Source of the DNA: Pelagicoccus sp. SDUM812003
Lineage (GTDB): Bacteria; Verrucomicrobiota; Verrucomicrobiia; Opitutales; Opitutaceae
Reading direction: 5' to 3'
Length of the DNA stretch: 64,000 nt
Assembly: GCF_031127815.1 (NCBI RefSeq)
Contig: NZ_JARXHY010000001.1
Coordinates: 186,001-250,000 of the forward strand
The notes below the pieces were generated by a model that did not search any database, was not told the origin of the DNA, and saw nothing but the letters and a program-made list of their open reading frames with translations. How positions within the stretch are numbered: position 1 is the stretch's first letter; each line of letters starts with the position of its first letter. The position numbers and the translations under genes are program-made. Positions 34,109 through 45,674 of this stretch are shown here, piece by piece.

Positions 34109-36106
34109 TCAGACGTAAGAGAAACGCAGTTCGTCCTTGGCCCTGGAAAGTTGGCTTTTCAGTTCGTCGATCGCGGCTTCCTGCTCGTTGACGCGGTGGC
34201 TTAGGTCGTGGCTTTGCTGCTTGAGGTCCGCCCCGTCCTCGAAGCTCGTCGAAATGCCTGCAGCATGGGCTTTGCGAGCTTGCAGCCACTTGGGCGCCAG
34301 AATGAGGGCGATCGAAAGTGGGATCAAGCCGCCTCCGATCAGAGCCACGTCGTAGGGGGCGGTGGCGAAGGCGCTGATCGCGAAGAATGCGGCGCTGAGC
34401 AGGGTGAGCGCCGCGATCAGAGGACCGCGTTTCCGATGGCTCACGCTTGATGCCGCGGAGTTTGTAGGCGTCTCTCGATTTTGGATACGCAATTGGGCGG
34501 AAGTTTCCTTCTGCTTGCGAACGAGGGCGTTGACCTCCGATTGCGCGGTTTCGAGCTTGGCTCCAAGCTCTACCATCCGCTGTTCGATTTCCTGCTTTCG
34601 CTTGCTCCAGAGAGCGTCCGCCTTTTTTGCGATTGCTCCCATGCCGAGATGCCCCATGCGAGTGGCCGTCTTTTGAAGGTGCTCTCGGATGCGTTCCGAA
34701 ACGCGGTAGCGGTCCTGATTGCGGTTGAAGAATGTCGGGTTGTCCTTGATGAAGGAAAGCACCTTGTCGGACTGGTTGGCGAAGAGCTGATTCGAGAACG
34801 CTTCGTCGATCCAAAGCAGGCCGGAAAGGAGCAGGATCTTCGATCGCTTCGCCTTCGATGGCACGTTGTAGCGGAATTTTCCATACGCGTTCCACTCCGG
34901 TAGACGTGACGCGAACGCTTGATTGTCGAGAGTGGCACGAATGGCTGCCACTCTCACCCCGTAGGAGATCGTGATCGCTTTCCCTTCCGAGTTTCGTTCG
35001 ATGGCGGATGCGGCGACTCGACTTATCCAAGCGAAAGTTTCGCTACCTTTCCCGGCCCCGAAAAGAGCGTCCAGCTCGTCTGGATACAGTCGGTCTGGGA
35101 GGCAGCAGAGGGCGAAGGTGGCGCGATCGTCGTTCGACATGCTGGAGAGGATCGCCTGGGCGGTCTTGCTCGAGTCGGGATTGTCTAGATCCCGTTTGCA
35201 GCGTGGAATCGCTTGCTGGAGCAGGCGAGGGTAGCCAAGGGTGATGACGCTAAGCGCCTTGCTGGTAGCGGGTTCGATGCCGGAGCGAACAGCGATTTCG
35301 TATGAATCGTCGTGGCTCATTGGATACAGCCTGAAGTCCGCGGTCAAGTTCGACCATTCGCCCCAGCTCTCGTGCGGGTAGGCGAGTTTGATCGGGTCTT
35401 GCGATTCCAAAAGGAAAACGAGGTTTCGACGGTAGGCTCCGCGCGTGGCGGCAGGCAGGACATAGTCGCGCAGCCAATCGATGATGGTGGCGGAAAGGGT
35501 GTCAACGTTTTCGATATAGAGGATGATCAGGTCAGTGCCTAGAGACTGAAGAGGGAGCGTGTCGAGAAACCCTTCCGCTTGGTTGTTGGCTTTGCTTTCG
35601 CCGAGGCCGACCGATACCTGCAAATCGTCTTTTACCGTTTCCGTGCGGCCGACCGATGCGGCGGCGGCCTGGTTGACGTAGGGCTTTTTGTTTTTCGCCA
35701 CCGAAGAGCGTGTGATGAGTATCGAGTCATCGGATACGATCGGATTGACCTTCCCTTGCTGGACACGGTCGAGCTTTTCGGCGATGCTTTCCTCCTTGTT
35801 CGGTTCGGCGGGGTAGCGCACGGACTTCGAACAGGCTCGAATGAATTCGGGAATCGTATCGAGCTGGCCTTCTCGCGTTGGCTGGAGCCAAACGACTTTC
35901 GCCTTTGCCATCAGCTCGCTCTCGCGAAACTGGGAGATGAAGGTGCTTTTTCCGATGCCATCTTCTCCCCAGAGGTTGAAGATACGATTGCTGGAAGCTT
36001 CCACGCCGCGAATGGGCAACAGATCCGCGAAGGCCTGCAGTTCCAGCTTTCGGGGAAGAAAGTGGTCTTGGTCGGCGTTGGCGGATTTTTGCGGGTCGGC
36101 TTTCAT
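34109..36106 (-). CDS. Uncharacterised membrane-anchored P-loop ATPase (STAND-like)
   Basis: A 665-residue protein with an N-terminal P-loop NTPase: Walker A GEDGIGKST at 47-55 and a Walker B-like strand at 192-200 (DLIILYIEN, with Glu in place of the usual second acid). A central region of about 270 residues has no recognised domain. A coiled coil (about 510-550) leads to two transmembrane helices (about 562-603) and a second coiled coil (about 625-655). Size and layout resemble STAND or KAP-type NTPases, which sense a signal and assemble at the membrane. It has no similar neighbour. A weak sigma-28-like sequence lies upstream. Function is unknown; defence and chemosensory roles are both guesses. 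Confidence 0.75.
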   Translation of the reverse strand: MKADPQKSANADQDHFLPRKLELQAFADLLPIRGVEASSNRIFNLWGEDGIGKSTFISQFRESELMAKAKVVWLQPTREGQLDTIPEFIRACSKSVRYPAEPNKEESIAEKLDRVQQGKVNPIVSDDSILITRSSVAKNKKPYVNQAAAASVGRTETVKDDLQVSVGLGESKANNQAEGFLDTLPLQSLGTDLIILYIENVDTLSATIIDWLRDYVLPAATRGAYRRNLVFLLESQDPIKLAYPHESWGEWSNLTADFRLYPMSHDDSYEIAVRSGIEPATSKALSVITLGYPRLLQQAIPRCKRDLDNPDSSKTAQAILSSMSNDDRATFALCCLPDRLYPDELDALFGAGKGSETFAWISRVAASAIERNSEGKAITISYGVRVAAIRATLDNQAFASRLPEWNAYGKFRYNVPSKAKRSKILLLSGLLWIDEAFSNQLFANQSDKVLSFIKDNPTFFNRNQDRYRVSERIREHLQKTATRMGHLGMGAIAKKADALWSKRKQEIEQRMVELGAKLETAQSEVNALVRKQKETSAQLRIQNRETPTNSAASSVSHRKRGPLIAALTLLSAAFFAISAFATAPYDVALIGGGLIPLSIALILAPKWLQARKAHAAGISTSFEDGADLKQQSHDLSHRVNEQEAAIDELKSQLSRAKDELRFSYV

Positions 36107-36156
36107 GGCGTGGGCGAGGCCGGAGCGTTGCGAAGGCTAGCAGTCTCTAGTCTTTT

Positions 36157-36183
36157 ACATCGGCCATAAACCGAAAAGTGTTA
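36157..36183 (-). promoter_or_regulatory. Weak sigma-28-like promoter upstream of the membrane ATPase
   Basis: Minus-strand TAACACTT, 11 bases, then GCCGATGT lies 50 bases upstream of the start. The -10 half fits the GCCGATAA consensus at seven of eight positions, the -35 half only at five. It would tie the gene to flagellar expression if real, but the -35 match is poor. Confidence 0.25.
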
Positions 36184-36215
36184 AATATTTGGTGAATATT
36201 GGCTTGTACGGCATC

Positions 36216-37178
36216 CTAAAGCGAGAAAATCGCGTCGCGGTACCGCATCATGAGCAGCTGCTCGGTCCATTGATCGAAGGGTGAGAGCTCGCTTCCGTCG
36301 AGGTATTCGCGGCAGAGCCACTCGATGTAGTGGCCTTTCGCTGCGTCGCAAAGGGGATAGCCGCCGCCGATGCGCGGGTTTATCTCGATGATTTCTATCG
36401 TTTCGGGACCTGGTTGATGAAAGGCTTGAATGTTGATGATCCCTCGGGCTTGAGGCAGCGAACGGGCAACGTTCCGGCAGAGTTCGATCAACGCCTCAAT
36501 GCGCTCGGTGCGGGCTTGGACCACTTCGCCAGACTCGACAGCGAGCCGCCGATGAGGGATGGCGCAAAGCGCTTCTCCATGGCGATCGAGGTAGAGGTTG
36601 ACGGTGTATTCGCTCCCGTGAGCGACGGGTTGCAGTATCCAGTCATCGGGTACGTCGCTCAGTTGGGCTTGGTTTTCTATGCGCTGGATGGTTGATGCGG
36701 CGCCGTCGCTCGGCTTGGCGATCAAGGGGAAGGCGAGGGCGATTGATTGAAGGTCGAGGCTTCGTTTGAGCCAGGTTTCTGGCGTGGGAGCTCCGATGCT
36801 TCGGAGGTGGCGAGCGGTTTCCAGCTTGTTGACGCACAGGGAGACGGTTTCGGGTGAAGAAACAGCGACCGCTGTGCCGTTGGCTTCCAGCTTCGGGCGT
36901 AGCTGCGCCAGCTTTGGCAGGTCCGCGTGTCGTGTTGGGATAACGAGGCCGATGCGGTTTCGAGAGCAGTAGTCCAGAAGGGTCGCTTCCCAGCGTGGGC
37001 TGCAGGAGGGGGGGAGCGCGGTGAAGTGGTCGGCGAAATGTCTGGAGGGCACGTTTTCTGCAACGTCGCTGGCGTGCAAGGCGATGCCGCGCTTGCCAGC
37101 GGCAGTTTTCGCTATGCGCGTGATGGCTGCCTTGCTGCCCGAGGAAAGAAGGAGCAGGCCGTTGCGGGGGGCGGTCAT
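36216..37178 (-). CDS. ATP-grasp enzyme (carbamoyl-phosphate synthase large subunit-like)
   Basis: A 320-residue ATP-grasp protein, start taken at 37178 (MTAPRNGLLLLSSGSK), because the upstream 34 codons look non-coding. N-terminal Rossmann-like part (1-105), then central and C-terminal grasp domains with FPLIAKPSDGAASTIQRI (ATP lysine), DWILQPVAHGSEYTVNLY, and the metal site EIIEINPRIGGGYPL. It resembles PylC-like and CarB-like ligases used in small-molecule ligation with amino acids or carboxylates. It lies 130 bases downstream of the first flagellin on the same strand and behind its terminator, so a role in flagellin modification is possible but only by location. Confidence 0.75.
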   Translation of the reverse strand: MTAPRNGLLLLSSGSKAAITRIAKTAAGKRGIALHASDVAENVPSRHFADHFTALPPSCSPRWEATLLDYCSRNRIGLVIPTRHADLPKLAQLRPKLEANGTAVAVSSPETVSLCVNKLETARHLRSIGAPTPETWLKRSLDLQSIALAFPLIAKPSDGAASTIQRIENQAQLSDVPDDWILQPVAHGSEYTVNLYLDRHGEALCAIPHRRLAVESGEVVQARTERIEALIELCRNVARSLPQARGIINIQAFHQPGPETIEIIEINPRIGGGYPLCDAAKGHYIEWLCREYLDGSELSPFDQWTEQLLMMRYRDAIFSL

Positions 37179-37248
37179 GATAAGGTGAATGGGAATCTCG
37201 CGGCGTTTCGGCAACAGATAATTCGCTCGAGTCGATCCGCGCCCAGGC

Positions 37249-37280
37249 AAAAAAAAGCGGCTCCCCGCGAAGGGAGCCAC
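37249..37280 (-). terminator. Terminator of flagellin gene 1
   Basis: Minus strand: a 9-bp stem (one mismatch) from GTGGCTCCC-type and GGGAGCCGC arms at 37257-37280, followed by eight T residues (plus-strand A run at 37249-37256). It ends 27 bases past the flagellin stop and separates it from the ATP-grasp gene. Confidence 0.85.
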
Positions 37281-37307
37281 TTGAAAGCCTTGAATGGATT
37301 AAGAGGA

Positions 37308-38123
37308 TTAACCCAACAGACGGAGAGCGACCTGGCTCGAGGCGTTTGCCTGAGAGAGCATGGAAGAACCAGCCTGTACCAAGATGTTGGCACGAGCGAG
37401 CTGAGTGGATTCTTCTGCTACGTCCACGTCGATGATGCGGCTGTTCGCAGCTTCGAGGTTCTGCTGGTTGACGCTCAGCATGTCCGAAGCGAACTGCAGA
37501 CGGCTGCTCTGGGCGCCATTGGTGGCGCGGATAGTAGCAACATTCTGGAGAGCGCTGGTGATGCTGGACAGGTTGGTTGCGGTCAACGTGTCTGAACCAC
37601 CGGTGAGCGCGGTACCCACAGAGTTCTCGAGGGCAGCCTGGCTGATGGATACTGACTTGCCGCCATCTTCAGTGATGCTCACTGAGAGGCTAGCGGCGGA
37701 ACTCGCGTCCGTGAAGAGGGATACACCGTTGAACTTTTCGCCGGTGATGGCGTCGAGCTGGCCCTTGAGAGCCTGGAACTCGGTGTTGTAGTTCCCCTTG
37801 TCGGTGGAGTTCTTGGTGACGTCGTCAGCCAGAGTACGGAGCTCGGACATGCGGTCCAGAATCTTGGTAGCGGTGCCGAGGGCGCCGTCCTGAGTCTGGA
37901 GGAAGGACTGAGCGTTCGCGATGTTGTTGTTTACGGCAGCAGTACGCTTGATTGCCGCGGACATCTTCATCGAAACCGCGAGTCCACCAGCGTCGTCCGC
38001 TGGGTTAACGATCTTCGAACCGCTAGAGAGACGAGCAAGGCTGTTTTGCAGCATTGCGTTGCTCTTGTTGAGGTTATTCTTCGCAGCGATAGCCGATGCG
38101 TTTGTATTGATTACAACTGACAT
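37308..38123 (-). CDS. fliC: Flagellin 1
   Basis: A 271-residue flagellin with the conserved N-terminal D0/D1 (MSVVINTNASAIAAKNNLNK; LARLSSGSKIVNPADDAGGLA) and C-terminal D1/D0 (ANSRIIDVDVAEESTQLARANILVQ..; ends ALRLLG). Residues 130-185 give only a short middle segment, so the outer domains D2/D3 are absent; such short flagellins expose little surface. The leader carries two CsrA-type sites, one over the Shine-Dalgarno. The product shares most of its sequence with the second flagellin at 39026. Exported by the flagellar type III apparatus; FliS at 49398 is the likely chaperone. Confidence 0.95.
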   Translation of the reverse strand: MSVVINTNASAIAAKNNLNKSNAMLQNSLARLSSGSKIVNPADDAGGLAVSMKMSAAIKRTAAVNNNIANAQSFLQTQDGALGTATKILDRMSELRTLADDVTKNSTDKGNYNTEFQALKGQLDAITGEKFNGVSLFTDASSAASLSVSITEDGGKSVSISQAALENSVGTALTGGSDTLTATNLSSITSALQNVATIRATNGAQSSRLQFASDMLSVNQQNLEAANSRIIDVDVAEESTQLARANILVQAGSSMLSQANASSQVALRLLG

Positions 38124-38130
38124 ATTATAT

Positions 38131-38138
38131 CATCCTTG
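38131..38138 (-). promoter_or_regulatory. CsrA-type site over the flagellin 1 ribosome-binding site
   Basis: The minus strand reads CAAGGATG, seven bases before the start codon, matching the CANGGANG consensus and including the Shine-Dalgarno AGGA core. Binding of a CsrA/RsmA protein here would block ribosome entry. It is the nearer of two such sites. Confidence 0.7.
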
Positions 38139-38149
38139 ATTTTTGCGGT

Positions 38150-38164
38150 GGCGTCCGTGCCGCC
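38150..38164 (-). promoter_or_regulatory. Upstream CsrA-type hairpin of flagellin 1
   Basis: The minus strand holds CACGGACG (38152-38159), a perfect CANGGANG match, in a hairpin: GGCG stem, loop GCACGGA with the GGA exposed, CGCC stem. This is the classical high-affinity CsrA presentation, 13 bases upstream of the site on the ribosome-binding sequence, as in the paired sites of Bacillus hag. Confidence 0.7.
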
Positions 38165-38448
38165 GCGCGTCCGATGAAAGCGTCGGACTTGCGCTTTTCT
38201 GCCGTGATGGCGGAAAGGGTGCGCTCGTGAGGTCACGGAGCGTTGGTGAAGTGTTTGCTGGTCATTACTACTCTTATGACGGACCGCGGGTGTGGCGGGT
38301 CCGATTGGTTGGTTTTTAGGTGTGGTGAAATGGGTTCGAGAGCGCGGTTGCGGTTTCTCTTTCTGGTCTACGGCTTGGTTGGTAGGCGGCGTCGAACGAG
38401 GTATCTTAGGCTTTTCGAGTTTTCCTTTGGGCTGGTTCGTGGGGGCTC

Positions 38449-38643
38449 TCAGAACGAGGCCAGGTGAACGCAGGAGGGTTGGCGTCTTTTATGGACGCGC
38501 CCGGTGAGGTAGATGAACGGCTCGAACACCTGCGGGGGGTCCGTCTGGGGTGGAGGTGTCATCTTGAGTGTTGTCAGGGACTGGGGCGCTTCCGTGCGCT
38601 TGCCGCCGACATACTGGGCATTCTCGTCCTTGATACTGCTCAT
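38449..38643 (-). CDS. Possible small protein between the flagellins
   Basis: A 64-codon minus-strand frame whose first 50 residues (MSSIKDENAQYVGGKRTEAP onward) have a balanced, non-Arg-biased composition and GC-rich third positions unlike most shadow frames here. It lacks a strong Shine-Dalgarno and any known motif. It could be a small flagellar accessory or a decayed remnant; I would treat it as a candidate only. Confidence 0.3.
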   Translation of the reverse strand: MSSIKDENAQYVGGKRTEAPQSLTTLKMTPPPQTDPPQVFEPFIYLTGRVHKRRQPSCVHLASF

Positions 38644-39025
38644 CGTATAGGCTTTCGGTATTGGTCTGGGCGAAGGATTCGCTCCGCGAGAGTTATCGAT
38701 CCGATTGTAGGGTTCGTGAGTTCTTTGAGCGCAATTGCTCAGCGAAGGCGTGTGGATCCTCTATCGAGGGCTCGCGTTCCGGATCGGGGCGGGGTACGTC
38801 TGTCCGAGTGATCTGGATACGCTACGCGTTCGCATGACGCACATGGCTCTGCTGCAGGTCGCATAGTCTGGCTCTCCATCGTGTCGAGCGGCGAGCTTGC
38901 GCCTCGGTCCGATTTGATGGGACGCGGCGGGCTAGCGCAGTGGAGCGATGGGGGAGCTCTCGCTTTCAGGCTGCTACGGTTTAGGCGCCCCGCCCGTCGG
39001 CGGGGAACCTATGTCGTAGTAGTAA
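38644..39025. other. Non-coding spacer downstream of flagellin 2
   Basis: About 380 bases with no supported gene. A GC-rich hairpin at 38988-39005 (CCCCGCC, loop CGTC, GGCGGGG) lies 20 bases past the flagellin 2 stop, without a T run, so it may stop transcription weakly or protect the mRNA 3' end. Confidence 0.4.
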
Positions 39026-39847
39026 CTAACCTAAAAGTTTGAGAGCGACCTGGGTGGAGGAGTTAGCTTGGGCGAGCATGGACGATCCGGCTTGCACCAG
39101 GATGTTGTAGCGGGCCAGCTGGGTGGACTCCTCGGCGACGTCGACGTCGATGATGCGGCTGTTCGCGGCTTCCAAGTTCTCTCTGTTCACGGTGAGCATC
39201 TCGGATGCGAAGGAGAGACGGTTGGACTGGGCTCCATTCGAGGCTCGGAGAGACGCGATGTTCTGGATGGCGTTGGTGATGGTGCTGATGCCCATTGCCG
39301 TGACTGTCGTGCTGTCGTTGCCGATCAAGGTGGCCCCGATCTGGGTCGCCAGGTCTGGCTGGTCGATGCTCACGGTGTTGCCTGCCGAACCTTTTTCGGT
39401 AGTGGCGACCGCGAGGGATCCTGAGCCACCGTTGCCGAAGAGGGAGACTCCGTTGAACTTCTCGTCCACCAGAGCGGAGAGCTGCTTCTTGAGCTGCTGG
39501 AACTCGGTGTCGTAGTTGTCCTTGTCGGTCTGGTTCTTGGTGACGTCGTCGGAAAGAACCTTGAGCTCGGACATACGGTCCAGAACCTTGGTGGCGGTTT
39601 GGAACGCTCCGTCCTGTGTCTGTAGGAACGAGCGAGCGTTGGCGATGTTGTCGTTGACTGCTGCGGTACGCTTGATGGTAGCCGAGAGCTTCATCGAAAC
39701 AGCGAGTCCGCCGGCATCGTCGGAAGGATTGACGATCTTGGATCCGCTGGAGAGGCGATTGAGACTGCGCTGGAGCATTGCATTGCTCGTAGCGAGGTTG
39801 TTAGACGCAGATATAGCTGCGCTATTGGTGTTAATTACTACTGACAT
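39026..39847 (-). CDS. fliC2: Flagellin 2
   Basis: A 273-residue flagellin, very like flagellin 1 in both end regions (MSVVINTNSAAISASNNLAT; ANSRIIDVDVAEESTQLARYNILVQ; ends ALKLLG) and differing mainly between about 130 and 190. It also lacks D2/D3. Its leader has the same two-site CsrA arrangement, and a sigma-28-like promoter lies 98 bases upstream. The two flagellins are on the same strand 902 bases apart, so they are separate transcripts and may be used in different parts or amounts of the filament. Confidence 0.95.
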   Translation of the reverse strand: MSVVINTNSAAISASNNLATSNAMLQRSLNRLSSGSKIVNPSDDAGGLAVSMKLSATIKRTAAVNDNIANARSFLQTQDGAFQTATKVLDRMSELKVLSDDVTKNQTDKDNYDTEFQQLKKQLSALVDEKFNGVSLFGNGGSGSLAVATTEKGSAGNTVSIDQPDLATQIGATLIGNDSTTVTAMGISTITNAIQNIASLRASNGAQSNRLSFASEMLTVNRENLEAANSRIIDVDVAEESTQLARYNILVQAGSSMLAQANSSTQVALKLLG

Positions 39848-39852
39848 TTTAA

Positions 39853-39860
39853 CTTCCTTG
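39853..39860 (-). promoter_or_regulatory. CsrA-type site over the flagellin 2 ribosome-binding site
   Basis: Minus strand CAAGGAAG, five bases before the start codon, overlaps the Shine-Dalgarno AGGA and matches CANGGANG. It occupies the same place as the site in flagellin 1, though the surrounding leader sequences differ. Confidence 0.7.
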
Positions 39861-39873
39861 TTTTTAGGTTTTT

Positions 39874-39889
39874 GCGACGTCCGTGTCGC
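39874..39889 (-). promoter_or_regulatory. Upstream CsrA-type hairpin of flagellin 2
   Basis: GCGAC/GTCGC forms a perfect 5-bp stem with a six-base loop ACGGAC, exposing the GGA core of the 8-mer CACGGACG (39878-39885). The same 8-mer is in the flagellin 1 leader. Two sites 17 bases apart would suit one CsrA dimer. Confidence 0.72.
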
Positions 39890-39944
39890 GGTTGCGGTGT
39901 TAGGGTGTCCGCTTCACCTGTAACGTTTTGCGCTACGCCTTCTA

Positions 39945-39970
39945 GTATCGGCAACTCAGTGGCGACTTTA
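39945..39970 (-). promoter_or_regulatory. Sigma-28-like promoter of flagellin 2
   Basis: Minus strand TAAAGTCG (-35), 10 bases, GCCGATAC (-10). Both halves fit the FliA consensus TAAA...GCCGATAA, with the spacer one base shorter than the usual 11. The expected start point near 39938 gives a leader of about 90 bases that contains both CsrA-type sites. Confidence 0.6.
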
Positions 39971-40096
39971 AGGGATTCTTTCGCAAAAGCGCGTTTTTTT
40001 GCTCAATCGCTGAGTGCGTGCGTTCACGCAAGGGTGAGTACCATTGCTCATTGTGTCGTTGCGGTTGGACTCTATTGGCGCAGCGTTTGCCGGAGA

Positions 40097-42706
40097 ATGG
40101 ACGATTCGCGAAGAGCAGATACGGAGGCGGCCCTTGAGAGGGCTCGCGGGTTGCAGGCAGAGGGACGCTTTGGGGAAGCGGCGAGCGTGTTGCGGGAAGC
40201 GGCGGAGAATGATCGGACTGACGGAGAGATCCTCCACCAGCTGGGCCTTTCGCTTTTTCAGGCGGGTCGAGCGGAGGAGGGGGTGAGGTGGTTGCGTCAA
40301 GCTCTGCAGCGGAATCCCGAGCATGCGGAAGCGCTCGCGAATACGGCGGTGGCTTTGAGAACGCTTGGACGCGACGTCGAAGCGTTGGAGATGTTGCAGC
40401 GGAGCGTGAGCTTGGCCCCGAACTTCGGTCCGGCCCAGTTCAACCTCGGGCAATGGCATTGCCAGGCGGGGAGGCTGAAGGAGGGAGAGCGGGCGCTGGC
40501 GCGGTCTGCGGAGCTTTTGCCGCGCGACGGACGCGTCTGGCGCAGTTGGGGCATTGCGGCGAGCTACCTTGGAGACTGGGAGGGGGCGGCCCAGCGGTTT
40601 CGCCAAGCGCTCTCGCTCGATGAAACGGATGCGGCGACGCATGCCGCTTTGGGTAAGGCGTACGGCGAGCTTGGCGAACTGGCCTCGGCCTACCAAGCCT
40701 ATGAGAGCGCCCTGCGCTGGGGCGGCGATGAAATCGACTCTCGAATCGAGTTGGCTGGTCTGGCGATGGGGCTTGGTCGGCATAGCGCTGCGGCGGAGCA
40801 TTTGCGTCGGCTGATTGAGCTCGGGGTGGCCGACGAGGCGGTTTATACGAATCTAGCGGTCACCTACCAAGCGCTCCAGCGATGGGGCCACGCGATGGAA
40901 GCGATCGATCAAGCGCTGGAGATCGCTCCTGAAAGCCCTCAAGCCTTGTGCGCGAAGGCGTCGCTTTGCTTGGCTCAGGGGCGCCCGAGCGACTGTGTGG
41001 AAAGCGCGCTGCTGGCGTTGCAGCAGGAGCCGGGCTTGGAGGCTGCTTGGAGCAATTTGGGGGCGGGCTATCTGGGCGTGAAGCAGTTTGACGAGGCCCG
41101 TCAGGCCTTTCAGGCGGCTCATGAAGTGAACCCCGATCGGGCGGAGCACCTTAATGGCCTGGGCTTGGCCTTGCGCGAACTGGAGCGCTTCGAAGAGATG
41201 GCTATATGCTTCAGACGGGCCTTGGAGCTGCAGCCGAACCAGGTTTCTTTTTTAGAGAACTACGCGGTGGGTCTCCTGAAAAGTGGCAAGCCGGTGGAGT
41301 CGGAACGCTTGCTGGTGCAGGCGATCGGCCTCGATGACCAGCGATCGTCGGCATGGGAGCAGCTTGGCAAAGCCCGTTACGAGCTCGGGCTCCACGAGGA
41401 GTCGAGGCAGGCCTACCTGCGCTCGTTCGAACTGGGGAATCGCGGCGTGGAGGCCAGGATGGCCTTCGCGGCTCGGCAGATCGCCAATGGATCCATCGAC
41501 GAAGCGACGCTCCTCGCCTACCATCGGCAGGCGGCGGAGGCTTTGGAAGCCGGCATCGAGCCCAAGGCCCCGGACTTAAGCGACTCCATCGAGGGAGTGA
41601 AGGCTGGGGGAAAACTGCGCCTAGGCTTCGTGTCGGCTGATTTTCGGCGGCATTCGGTGGCGTTTTTTCTGCTGCCGCTATTTCAGCGATTGGATCGCGG
41701 CCGTTTCGAAGTGATCTGCTACAGCTGCGTTTCCGAGCCGGACCAGACCACGGCCCAGTTTCGGGACCTGGCCGACGCCTGGAGAGACATCAGCCAAGGC
41801 TCGGCGGACGAACTGACGAAGCTGGCCAGAGAGGATGCCATATCCATTTTGATCGATCTGTCCGGTTTCACCGCTGGAAATCGCTTGGTCGCGTTCGCTC
41901 GGCGGGCGGCGCCGGTTCAAGCGAGCTGGTTGGGCTATGCCCATGCCACCGGGCTTTCTGCGATGGACGCCAGACTGGTGGATCGTGATACGGACCCATG
42001 CGAGGGCGCGACCGCCTCGGAAGAGACGGCCTACCTGGAGGGGTGTTTTCTTTGCTACCAGCCGCCAGCGGAATTGCCCGATTCGGGAAGTCCGCCTCTT
42101 TTGGTTTCGAAATCGGCGACTTTCGGCTGCTTCAACAACTTCGCGAAGCTGGGAGAGGCAAGCATCGCGTTGTTCGCTCGGGTTTTGAAAGCCGCGCCCG
42201 GCTCGAGCCTGCTTCTGAAGAGCTTTTACCACGATGACGCGGCGACGGGAGAACACCTGCTGCGACGTTTCGAGCAGCATGGGGTAGAGGCAGAACGAGT
42301 GTCGCTGCTGCCGCCTCAACCGACCCTGGTGGAGCATTTGGAGCTGTATCGGCGGGTGGACGTGGCGCTCGATCCCACGCCTTACAATGGCACCACTACC
42401 ACCTGCGAAGCCTTGGCCATGGGAGTGCCGGTGGTGAGTCTGACGGGTCGGCGGCATGCAGCCCGCGTGGGGCGGAGCCTGTTGCGCGCGGCGGGAGTGC
42501 CGCAATGGATCGCGGAGACCGAGTCCGACTACGTAGCGCTCGCTAGCGACCTGGCTTCCGATGCGAGCGCCTTGCTGGAATGGCGAAAGGCGTTGCCGTC
42601 TCGGTTGCGCAGGTCGACCCTCTGGGATGCGGAAGGGTTCGCCCGACGCATGGGGGATTGTTTTGAGCGGCTTTGGGAAACGGTTTCGGATCGGTCCGCT
42701 CGCTAG
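40097..42706 (+). CDS. TPR and O-GlcNAc-transferase-like (GT41/SPINDLY) glycosyltransferase
   Basis: An 869-residue protein from the ATG at 40097, which follows CGGAG. A chain of about a dozen TPR repeats covers residues 20-480. The C-terminal half is GT41-like: LGFVSADFRRHSVAFFLLPL with the His pair, LIDLSGFTAGNRL, DPTPYNGTTTTCEALAMGVPVV and GRRHAARVGRSLLRAAG (the UDP-sugar site of OGT). It likely adds GlcNAc, or another UDP-sugar residue, to Ser/Thr of a protein, with the TPR part choosing the target. It lies divergently next to flagellin 2, so flagellin is the obvious candidate substrate. It has no signal peptide and would work in the cytosol before export. Confidence 0.86.
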   Translation: MDDSRRADTEAALERARGLQAEGRFGEAASVLREAAENDRTDGEILHQLGLSLFQAGRAEEGVRWLRQALQRNPEHAEALANTAVALRTLGRDVEALEMLQRSVSLAPNFGPAQFNLGQWHCQAGRLKEGERALARSAELLPRDGRVWRSWGIAASYLGDWEGAAQRFRQALSLDETDAATHAALGKAYGELGELASAYQAYESALRWGGDEIDSRIELAGLAMGLGRHSAAAEHLRRLIELGVADEAVYTNLAVTYQALQRWGHAMEAIDQALEIAPESPQALCAKASLCLAQGRPSDCVESALLALQQEPGLEAAWSNLGAGYLGVKQFDEARQAFQAAHEVNPDRAEHLNGLGLALRELERFEEMAICFRRALELQPNQVSFLENYAVGLLKSGKPVESERLLVQAIGLDDQRSSAWEQLGKARYELGLHEESRQAYLRSFELGNRGVEARMAFAARQIANGSIDEATLLAYHRQAAEALEAGIEPKAPDLSDSIEGVKAGGKLRLGFVSADFRRHSVAFFLLPLFQRLDRGRFEVICYSCVSEPDQTTAQFRDLADAWRDISQGSADELTKLAREDAISILIDLSGFTAGNRLVAFARRAAPVQASWLGYAHATGLSAMDARLVDRDTDPCEGATASEETAYLEGCFLCYQPPAELPDSGSPPLLVSKSATFGCFNNFAKLGEASIALFARVLKAAPGSSLLLKSFYHDDAATGEHLLRRFEQHGVEAERVSLLPPQPTLVEHLELYRRVDVALDPTPYNGTTTTCEALAMGVPVVSLTGRRHAARVGRSLLRAAGVPQWIAETESDYVALASDLASDASALLEWRKALPSRLRRSTLWDAEGFARRMGDCFERLWETVSDRSAR

Positions 42707-43290: not shown

Positions 43291-43899
43291 ATGTCGGAAG
43301 TCTATCTAGACGGGGAGAAGGTCGAGTTTCAGGGAGACGCTCCTGAAAGCTGCGCCGATGCGATTGCGCTGATCGAAAACTATCTCGGCGGCGTCGGTCG
43401 TGTCGTGGAGCGGGTGGAACTCGATGGAGTGGAGAGGGAGCTGCAGGATCTCGCCCAAGTCGTCAACTACGGCGTCTTGGCGTTTTTCACTCAATCGGCT
43501 CAGCAGCGTCTGGCCTCGCTTTGCGGTCAATGGAGCGAGGCGAGCTCGCGCATCGCGGAGGAAGCCGAGACCTTGGCGAGCGTGAGTCTCAGAGTGGAGT
43601 GGAAGGAGAGCCAGATGAAGGTGGTGGACTGTTTGGAACGGATGCGACCGATCATCGAAGGCGTGGAGGTGGCTCGAGGCTATGGAGAGGAAAGCCAAGC
43701 CGCATGGACGGAGGCTCTAGGCCAGGCGTTTCAGCGAGGGATCGACTCGATCAACGCCGTGGCCGACGCGGTCGAGTCCGGCGACAGCGTGCGTGTTTCC
43801 GACCAGCTTGCCAGTGAGGTCGCTCCCAGCTGGCTGACATTGGGTCGGTGCTTGCGAGAGGACGTGGCCCAAGTTCTAGACGGAAAGGAAGCCTCATGA
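43291..43899 (+). CDS. Uncharacterised protein coupled to Maf
   Basis: A 202-residue, acidic, mostly helical cytosolic protein without a recognised domain. It begins 7 bases after MOSC and its stop overlaps the Maf start (ATGA at 43896-43899), so it is made together with Maf. No membrane segment or known motif. Position makes a role in flagellin glycosylation, perhaps as a chaperone of Maf or flagellin, plausible, but there is no direct sequence evidence. Confidence 0.72.
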   Translation: MSEVYLDGEKVEFQGDAPESCADAIALIENYLGGVGRVVERVELDGVERELQDLAQVVNYGVLAFFTQSAQQRLASLCGQWSEASSRIAEEAETLASVSLRVEWKESQMKVVDCLERMRPIIEGVEVARGYGEESQAAWTEALGQAFQRGIDSINAVADAVESGDSVRVSDQLASEVAPSWLTLGRCLREDVAQVLDGKEAS

Positions 43900-45674
43900 G
43901 CCTTGGGATGCAGCGATTTCGGGAGCGACACATCCACCTCACGGATCGGGTGTCTGAGGCGACCGCCGATTCCGAGGAGCTCGCTCCTTGGAAAGCGCGT
44001 TGCTTGGATCCTGAGGCCCTGCTGGACCGCTGGATACGGGGCTTGAATCTTCAAGCGGACGCGGCCGTCGCGGTGAGTGGGGTAGGCGACGGTTCGCACC
44101 TCAGGAAGCTGCTGGAGATCCTGCCGGAAGGCGGCATGGTCTTTTGCGCCGAGGCGAATGCGCGGCGGTTCAACGCCTTTTTGGCGACGGATCTGGCGGC
44201 GGAGTTGATGACCGATCGTCGTTTGCTTTTCGGTGTCGGCGAGATCGACGATATGTTTTTCCGTACCTTGGCCTCCTTCGAGATCGTGAGCTATGCTAGC
44301 GCAGAGCCGTTGATCTTCGCTCCCCTTTACCAGGAGGACGAGGCGTTCTATGCCAGGTTTTTCCTGGAGTTCGCCCGCAACGTGGAGATGTGGCGCAAGA
44401 TGTACGGGACCAACCTCTCGCAGTCGGGCTTCTGGCAGCGAAACACCTTTCTCAACCTGCGGCGCTTGATCGTTTCTCCGGATCCCATCGAATTCCAGGG
44501 CTGCTTCGAGGGACTGCCGTTGATCATGGCAGGCGCCGGGCCGTCCCTCGACGAATCGCTGGAGTTCATCAAATCGATGCAGGATCGCGCGGTCGTCGTG
44601 GCGGGAAACTCGTCGTTTCGGGCTCTGCGGCGAGCGGGCGTGGATCCGCATTTCGTGCTGGCGGCGGATCCGAACCCCTCCACCGACCTCGGGTTTCACG
44701 GGGCGGAGATTGGCCGCAGTCTGCTGCTGTGCCCGTTCATGGTGTATCCGGAGGTGCCCAAGCGTTTTGGGGATCGCATCTCGGCCTGGTCGTTTGGGAA
44801 TCCGGTCGCCTCCTATCTGCGCAAGCAAAGCGGGCGTGATCGCGAAGCCTTCGTGACTGAGCAGGGCACCGTTTCCGCCTGCGCTTTCGATCTGGCGGTC
44901 ATCCTCGGGTGTCGAACCGTATTTTTCGCTGGCCAGGATCTGGCGGCCCGTTCGGATGGGCAGATGCATGCCAGCGATTCCTTCTACGCGGATCAGGGAT
45001 CGGACCGAACGACCTTGGAAGGCTGTCGCTGGCTTCCTGGGAACACCTTGGAGAAGGTGCCGGTGGAAGCGAAGCTGTTCGTCTATTTGAAAACCTTCGT
45101 GGAGCTAGCTCGCGCCTACTCGAAGGAGCTCAAGTTGAACGATGGCAAAGGCCTGACCTTGTACAACATCTCCCGACTGGGAGCGAAGGTGGAAGGCATG
45201 CCCTATCTGAGTTTGCGGGAAGCGTCCGAAGTCATGCAGCGCTTTCCGGCCGGAGGGTCGGAGAAGGCATGGAAGCAGGTGGAAGCCATACTGCTGCGCC
45301 ATCGGGTCGGATGGGGCAAGATCGGTCGGACCTTGAGCGAGCTGCAGGACTATGTTTCTCGAACGCTGGAGCTGAGCTTGGAGGCGGCTATGGCCATCGA
45401 GCTGGAAAAGATCGACCTGGAGACTGCCAAGCAGCGAAAGCGCTCGCTGGAGGAAGCTACGACGGCTCGAGAGGATTTCCTGAAAATCCTCATGGAAGGG
45501 CAGCTGAAAAGGGAGCTGCATATCCACGAACGGGCGAAAGCGCTGATGACCCGTCTAGGGGCGGGCTCGGAGCTCGAGCAGCTCGGATCCTACTTTTGGG
45601 CTGTCGCGGAGGGGGCGTTCCACTTGGCGTCGTCGATCGAGATGAGTCGCCAAGACAGCCTAGCCGCTCAATGA
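43896..45674 (+). CDS. Maf/PseE motility-associated glycosyltransferase
   Basis: A 592-residue protein, start at 43896 (after GGAAAGGAAG) rather than an upstream ATG that reads into the previous gene. It has the DUF115-type core: PLIMAGAGPSLDESLEFIKS, VVVAGNSSFRALRRAGVDPHFVLAADPNP and GRTVFFAGQDLA-like sequence, ahead of a coiled C-terminus. Maf proteins move pseudaminic or legionaminic acid from CMP-sugar to flagellin Ser/Thr. The pse genes 5 kb downstream and flagellins upstream support this here. The stop overlaps the MobA start (ATGA at 45671-45674). Confidence 0.85.
   Translation: MSLGMQRFRERHIHLTDRVSEATADSEELAPWKARCLDPEALLDRWIRGLNLQADAAVAVSGVGDGSHLRKLLEILPEGGMVFCAEANARRFNAFLATDLAAELMTDRRLLFGVGEIDDMFFRTLASFEIVSYASAEPLIFAPLYQEDEAFYARFFLEFARNVEMWRKMYGTNLSQSGFWQRNTFLNLRRLIVSPDPIEFQGCFEGLPLIMAGAGPSLDESLEFIKSMQDRAVVVAGNSSFRALRRAGVDPHFVLAADPNPSTDLGFHGAEIGRSLLLCPFMVYPEVPKRFGDRISAWSFGNPVASYLRKQSGRDREAFVTEQGTVSACAFDLAVILGCRTVFFAGQDLAARSDGQMHASDSFYADQGSDRTTLEGCRWLPGNTLEKVPVEAKLFVYLKTFVELARAYSKELKLNDGKGLTLYNISRLGAKVEGMPYLSLREASEVMQRFPAGGSEKAWKQVEAILLRHRVGWGKIGRTLSELQDYVSRTLELSLEAAMAIELEKIDLETAKQRKRSLEEATTAREDFLKILMEGQLKRELHIHERAKALMTRLGAGSELEQLGSYFWAVAEGAFHLASSIEMSRQDSLAAQ

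Follow-up and report, generated by a model that had tools for sequence, protein, structure and literature searches.

Paired CsrA-type sites and a predicted upstream pseudoknot in flagellin leaders of Pelagicoccus and related Verrucomicrobiota

Introduction

The CsrA-FliW flagellin checkpoint has been studied, judging by titles, in Bacillus, Campylobacter and Clostridioides. In Bacillus subtilis hag, CsrA blocks the flagellin Shine-Dalgarno sequence, FliW relieves the block, and fliW and csrA are neighbours (PMC6529632, in its accessible part; the details of the binding sites are general background). The same text also mentions binding of FliW to the hag leader, for a reason that is unknown. 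The available text on Campylobacter jejuni flaA describes a pair of hairpins whose loops hold ANGGA, the second over the ribosome-binding site, and reports compensatory changes and FliW as the CsrA antagonist (PMC4894983). The leaders described here share, or are predicted to share, these traits with both systems. Moreover, co-occurrence of CsrA and FliW has been noted in several lineages, and the supplementary tables of that work may include Verrucomicrobiota (PMC7366521, accessible part). In the accessible literature on FliW, CsrA and Verrucomicrobia, the last were named only for FlgV. No leader of the present kind appeared in the literature on flagellin leader pseudoknots with CsrA or motility (titles and abstract openings, mostly of non-subscription papers), nor among the matches listed for structured RNAs, Verrucomicrobia and flagella (titles and abstract openings).

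Here we analyzed a stretch of 64,000 nucleotides (the window) from a 5.7-Mb assembly of Pelagicoccus sp. SDUM812003. An earlier note on this DNA had proposed that the flagellin 1 leader carries two CsrA-type sites, arranged as in hag.

Results

Two flagellin leaders in the window

Flagellin 1 (271 aa; 37308..38123, minus strand) is closest to a protein of Verrucomicrobiae bacterium DG1235 (87% identity), with Pelagicoccus records among the next matches. The two sites of its leader lie on the minus strand where the earlier note had placed them, CACGGACG at 38159-38152 and CAAGGATG at 38138-38131, before the ATG at 38123-38121, and within this 34-nt stretch both do match CANGGANG exactly. The upstream site had been assigned to a GGCG/CGCC stem with the GGA exposed. 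Such a stem, with the loop GCACGGA, can form and was chosen by a script that admits no mismatch, but the minimum free energy (MFE) fold prefers another register, GCGG-c-GGC / ACGGAC / GCC-a-CCGC. This hairpin, here called P1 (38145..38166, minus strand), is predicted from folding and covariation and has its GGA at 38156-38154. The claimed overlap of the second site with the Shine-Dalgarno sequence was borne out; the site itself lies mostly within the loop of a small predicted hairpin, P2 (AUC-AAGGAU-GAU, 38140-38129, minus strand), which together with the start codon occupies 38121..38140. P2 is not seen in the MFE fold of this leader, which has another, later hairpin instead.

Directly upstream of P1, scans, alignments and shuffle tests point to an H-type pseudoknot at 38169..38197 (minus strand), which the earlier note had overlooked. 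Its stem S1 pairs AAAGCG (38197-38192) with CGCTTT (38182-38177), and S2 pairs GTCCGA (38188-38183) with TCGGAC (38174-38169). Loop L1 covers 38191-38189 and L3 covers 38176-38175, L3 being longer when S1 is cut to 4 bp.

The leader of flagellin 2 (273 aa; 39026..39847, minus strand) has a like architecture at 39851..39918, on the same strand. Its predicted pseudoknot consists of S1, GGTG (39918-39915) with CACC (39907-39904), and S2, GCGG (39912-39909) with CCGC (39897-39894). P1 follows as GCGAC-ACGGAC-GTCGC (39889-39874), and P2, AAC-AAGGAA-GTT (39862-39851), encloses CAAGGAAG at 39860-39853.

The window contains 56 matches to CANGGANG, against 37.7 +/- 5.9 in shuffled sequences. Since single matches are so common, the motif by itself is little proof, and we rejected its counts as stand-alone evidence. 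Same-strand pairs 15-30 nt apart occur twice (38131/38152 and 39853/39878), with about 0.4 expected by simple arithmetic from the list of matches in the window, and both are the two flagellin leaders. A further close pair, 55857/55871, 14 nt apart, seemingly lies in a coding region (by eye).

Beside the flagellins, a TPR protein resembling O-linked glycosyltransferases (39872-42706, plus strand) and a DUF115-like protein (43848-45674, plus strand), both named by eye, look like a flagellin glycosylation cluster.

csrA, fliW and the flagellins of the genome

A genome search found csrA and fliW present, in one copy each and adjacent. These sole copies lie on another contig, so the window holds neither gene, in agreement with the earlier note. 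The gene order is flgK-flgL-fliW-csrA-flagellin (flgK and flgL named by eye). The CsrA protein has 95 aa and matches structure 1t3o (1.6e-15), which we take to be CsrA of B. subtilis, as well as the CsrA chain of the FliW-CsrA complex 5dmb; it retains L4, R44 and N55, presumably the residues that contact RNA and FliW. FliW matches chain A of 5dmb, the FliW of that solved complex. Among 38 relatives, CsrA and FliW co-occur in the same 22. The ribosome-binding region of csrA itself (L009, within about 25 nt before 9096) carries CAAGGAAG, which suggests, at the level of sequence, that csrA is autoregulated by CsrA.

Four of the five flagellins have a similar leader, namely flagellins 1 and 2, a third on contig C10 and a fourth at another place on contig C1. 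In each of these leaders a hairpin has ANGGAN as its hexaloop, and another ANGGA falls on the ribosome-binding site. The letters of the P1 stem vary among the four paralogues, and the flagellin 2 and C10 genes have an identical 5-bp stem. The flagellin beside csrA carries no CANGGANG in the last 75 nt of its leader, with ANGGA only at the Shine-Dalgarno sequence; being different, it led us to reject the idea that all flagellins of the genome are alike. The C10 and C1 genes (G000:C10:6407, L011, and G000:C1:540003, L010) have open frames of 863 and 439 codons, and with frames of such length their variable domains probably contain large inserts.

Conservation of the two CsrA-type sites and their hairpins

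We gathered 82 leaders by flagellin homology, of which 68 are not beside csrA (the unselected set) and 14 are. The GGA cores, on whose conservation the earlier proposal depended, recur in these relatives. ANGGA is present at the Shine-Dalgarno sequence in 64/68 unselected leaders versus 8/74 control genes, and an upstream GGA-loop hairpin in 55/68 versus 9/74. Both elements occur together in 53/68 unselected leaders, 2/14 csrA-adjacent leaders and 3/74 control genes; the pair is missing in 15 of the 68 leaders not beside csrA. The spacing from GGA to GGA has a median of 21 nt (65 leaders).

Then we aligned 46 leaders, hand-chosen from the 82 and mostly from one family, with MAFFT (alignment A2). 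Those left out were the 14 csrA-adjacent leaders, four near-duplicates of A2 leaders and 18 others, one of them a near-duplicate and the rest different-looking or distant. In A2, CA-GGA never varies at the Shine-Dalgarno site, and C..GGA is at least 90% conserved at the upstream one. The covariation sought for the upstream stem was found, the inner helix of P1 being paired in 93.8% of the cells of these chosen leaders with changes on both sides at 5/5 pairs. The loop of P1 is most commonly ACGGAC (22/65), and some hexaloop is present in 44/65.

Around the Shine-Dalgarno site, the P2 stem is AUC/GAU in most leaders and AAC/GUU in others. A stem of at least 3 bp with a loop of 6-8 nt was found in 57/72 leaders, and one with a hexaloop in 44/72. 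A2 columns 82-84/91-93 are paired in 84.1% of cells, with a UA/UG/AU exchange at the middle pair. The covariation score of P2 exceeds that of shuffles, and the number of its pairs with both-side changes does not (it was reached by 220/500). A similar Shine-Dalgarno hairpin has been reported for C. jejuni flaA (available text of PMC4894983). The traits of a hag/flaA-type leader are found together here: at least two ANGGA sites with one over the Shine-Dalgarno sequence, GGA loops with covariation support (clear for P1, weaker for P2), csrA together with fliW in one genome, and a CsrA that keeps L4, R44 and N55 with their presumed roles.

A predicted pseudoknot upstream of P1

For a wider set we used R1, a covariance model of S2 and P1 built from A2. 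From 115 matches at E<=0.001 we obtained 98 unique leaders, removed eight without P1 or S2 by rule, and thinned the remaining 90 to 73 with less than 80% ungapped identity; L039:2809-2900, probably a chance match, was retained among these. A pseudoknot adjoins P1 in 65 of these 73 non-redundant leaders. The commonest gap is 4 nt (31/65), and it is 2-6 nt in 62/65 within a search range of about 0-15 nt. In 53/73 leaders the pseudoknot beside P1 was equalled by at most five of 100 dinucleotide shuffles of the same leader. At a fixed place and a cut of -16 kcal/mol, it was found in 44/68 unselected leaders, 1/14 csrA-adjacent leaders and 4/74 control genes; the 24/68 that failed the cut include flagellin 5 of this genome. 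A first scan (82 leaders, 60 shuffles), superseded by the later ones, had shown a near-constant distance to the ATG.

The support differs between the two crossing stems. Among the 46 chosen leaders, S2 is paired in 81.1% of cells and has both-side changes at 5/5 pairs. S2 and P1 together give 87 cells with both-side changes versus 24.3 in shuffles and 8-24 when slid, and their pairing is 87.5% versus 26-40% when slid. Leaders gathered with R1 are biased to S2 and P1, both part of the model, and S2 was misassigned by the script in several of them (e.g. L066, L064, L023:1854). S1 is contained in no covariance model, R1 included; it formed in 44/73 leaders, whereas swapping the 3' halves between leaders gave 18.7 on average and 26 at most. 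It is short, with only 4 bp in 35/65 pseudoknots. In alignment A1 (12 leaders), 75% of the S1 cells are paired and a single both-side change is seen; part of this low pairing comes from a one-column misalignment. Taken over the whole structure, A1 has no more pair types than its shuffles (240/500). Compensatory changes strongly favour S2, while S1 draws its support from the cross-leader exchange and the pseudoknot scan beside P1, and is weak in A1. From leader to leader, both stems and loops differ in letters and in length; L3 is poor in G (18 G in 425 nt) and L2 measures 0-1 nt in 48/65. In some leaders, such as those of relatives G035 and G036, the GGA hairpins are retained and no pseudoknot was found, so the CsrA sites do not need the pseudoknot.

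Specificity and range of the model

In this genome, R1 at E<=1 gave four matches among the best 150 of 1482 candidates scored, and these are the four flagellin leaders. All four are in the training set, so the informative part is that no other match appeared among the candidates scored. In the 38 relatives (at most 121 candidates scored per genome), R1 at E<=1e-4 matched 20 of the 22 genomes that encode CsrA and FliW, plus one without them (fragmented, 81% complete); 18 of these 21 genomes supplied leaders to R1, and the matches there are therefore not independent. At a cut of 0.01, 25/38 relatives match, including four without CsrA (G008, G024, G027 and G029; 1.0e-3 to 5.3e-3).

Beyond these relatives, at least 70 of 286 genomes of the class match at E<=0.01 (best 16 first-look candidates scored), and flagellin matches below 1e-5 extend to other families of the class (f35, f56, f62). 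In the phylum, at least 23 of 387 genomes match at E<=1e-5 (best 11 first-look candidates scored), L132 among them being a non-flagellin locus; none of the candidates scored at this threshold lies outside the class. The weak matches are mixed, since 24 of the 29 loci L110-L138 contain a flagellin and five do not (L132, L134, L136, L137 and L138; E 4.7e-6 to 8.7e-5), and matches from about 5e-6 upwards were not trusted alone. The frame after the match was read for 17 of these 29 loci. In L116 and L125 it runs off the locus with a flagellin-like start, and the flagellin detected there is a neighbour. Terrimicrobiaceae M30B24 has four weak, clustered matches, and the one that was read precedes a flagellin-like start. 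Of three Proteobacterial genomes, two have no match and the third has one at 1.1e-3.

An additional hairpin and promoters

A simple rule-based scan found a hairpin, P0, 5' of the pseudoknot in 46/65 pseudoknotted leaders. The scan found none in the flagellin 1 leader; by eye, and with low confidence, a weak hairpin GCC/GGC or CCG/CGG is possible there at 38201..38213 (minus strand). Four divergent leaders (L128:1501-1580, L051:2308-2388, L127:2590-2667 and, just upstream, L073:66-155) have GGA in the P0 loop, a possible third candidate CsrA site near the pseudoknot in these four.

A pattern based on the sigma-28 consensus was found in 11/82 upstream regions versus a rate of 0.005 in shuffled ones. 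Such a promoter-like sequence lies about 120 nt upstream of flagellin 2 (TAAAG-N13-GCCGATA, 39946..39970, minus strand) and of some relatives, a distance at which the whole structure would be transcribed, within the 5' UTR. The pattern was not found before flagellin 1 or its orthologues, and given this difference the two flagellin genes may not be alike in their transcription.

Discussion

We infer, with a probability of roughly 0.8, that this leader supplies the RNA side of a CsrA-FliW checkpoint on flagellin and that the pseudoknot is most likely structural. A CsrA dimer would span the P1 loop (ANGGAN) and the P2 loop on the ribosome-binding site, bridging GGA cores about 21 nt apart, and ribosome binding would be blocked. 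Flagellin export would then free FliW, which would remove CsrA, and translation would start. The role of the pseudoknot would be that of a stable 5' structure, holding the CsrA hairpins in register, shielding the abundant flagellin mRNA, or serving both ends.

There is an appreciable, if minor, chance that the upstream structure is a generic 5' stabiliser unlinked to CsrA. Its sequence varies freely, and it can be absent while the GGA hairpins remain, as in the G035 and G036 leaders; against this stands its close spacing to the CsrA hairpin, 2-6 nt in 62/65 pseudoknotted leaders. It is rather unlikely that the leader serves mainly as a CsrA sponge and not for its own control: the presence of two sites in each of four flagellin mRNAs would suit such a role, for which the C. 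jejuni flaA mRNA is a precedent (available text of PMC4894983), but the second site lies on the ribosome-binding site and so predicts direct repression.

The pseudoknot might instead be a receptor with a regulatory role, bound by FliW, by some other protein or by a small ligand, making a two-input leader. We regard this as improbable: its position next to the CsrA hairpin is conserved, and the binding of FliW to the hag leader is stated without an explanation (PMC6529632, accessible part), but neither the sequence nor the length of its stems and loops is constant, unlike in ligand-binding riboswitches as generally known. Since FliW is stated to bind that leader, binding to the pseudoknot is possible, and a more specific and still more speculative form would be a device that combines a CsrA-responsive hairpin pair with a pseudoknot recognised by FliW or flagellin-FliW. 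If true, the flagellin mRNAs of this class of Verrucomicrobiota would sense the export state in two ways, by way of CsrA and by direct recognition of the RNA, and the unexplained binding of FliW to the hag leader would be accounted for. Finally, we reject as highly improbable that CANGGANG matches here by chance and that the GGA near the ATG is merely a Shine-Dalgarno sequence, for although single matches are common, P1 has compensatory changes, both elements are far more frequent in flagellin leaders than in control genes (53/68 vs 3/74), and four paralogues of the genome repeat the arrangement.

Read as the RNA half of the checkpoint, these leaders extend the CsrA-FliW system to Verrucomicrobiota with comparative evidence, add a conserved, predicted pseudoknot to leaders of this type, and offer a concrete candidate place for the unexplained contact of FliW with the leader. 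With its stems defined, the role of the pseudoknot is directly testable by breaking and restoring them.

The architecture was also compared with described RNAs. A known Rfam family was rejected, as Rfam 15 gave no match in 20 loci at the gathering score; at E<=1, the window from 36000 to 41000 gave one sub-threshold match, outside the leaders. The predicted pseudoknot resembles preQ1-I riboswitches, as these are generally known, in its crossing S1 and S2, its short L1 and L2 and its G-poor L3, and differs from them in that its loops vary in letters and length. We know of no pseudoknot in the B. subtilis hag leader, and compared with hag one architecture is here common to four flagellin paralogues. 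C. jejuni flaA differs in its 45-nt leader and its phylum, and the word "pseudoknot" is absent from the available text of that paper (PMC4894983). The circuit is known, and the RNA architecture is new.
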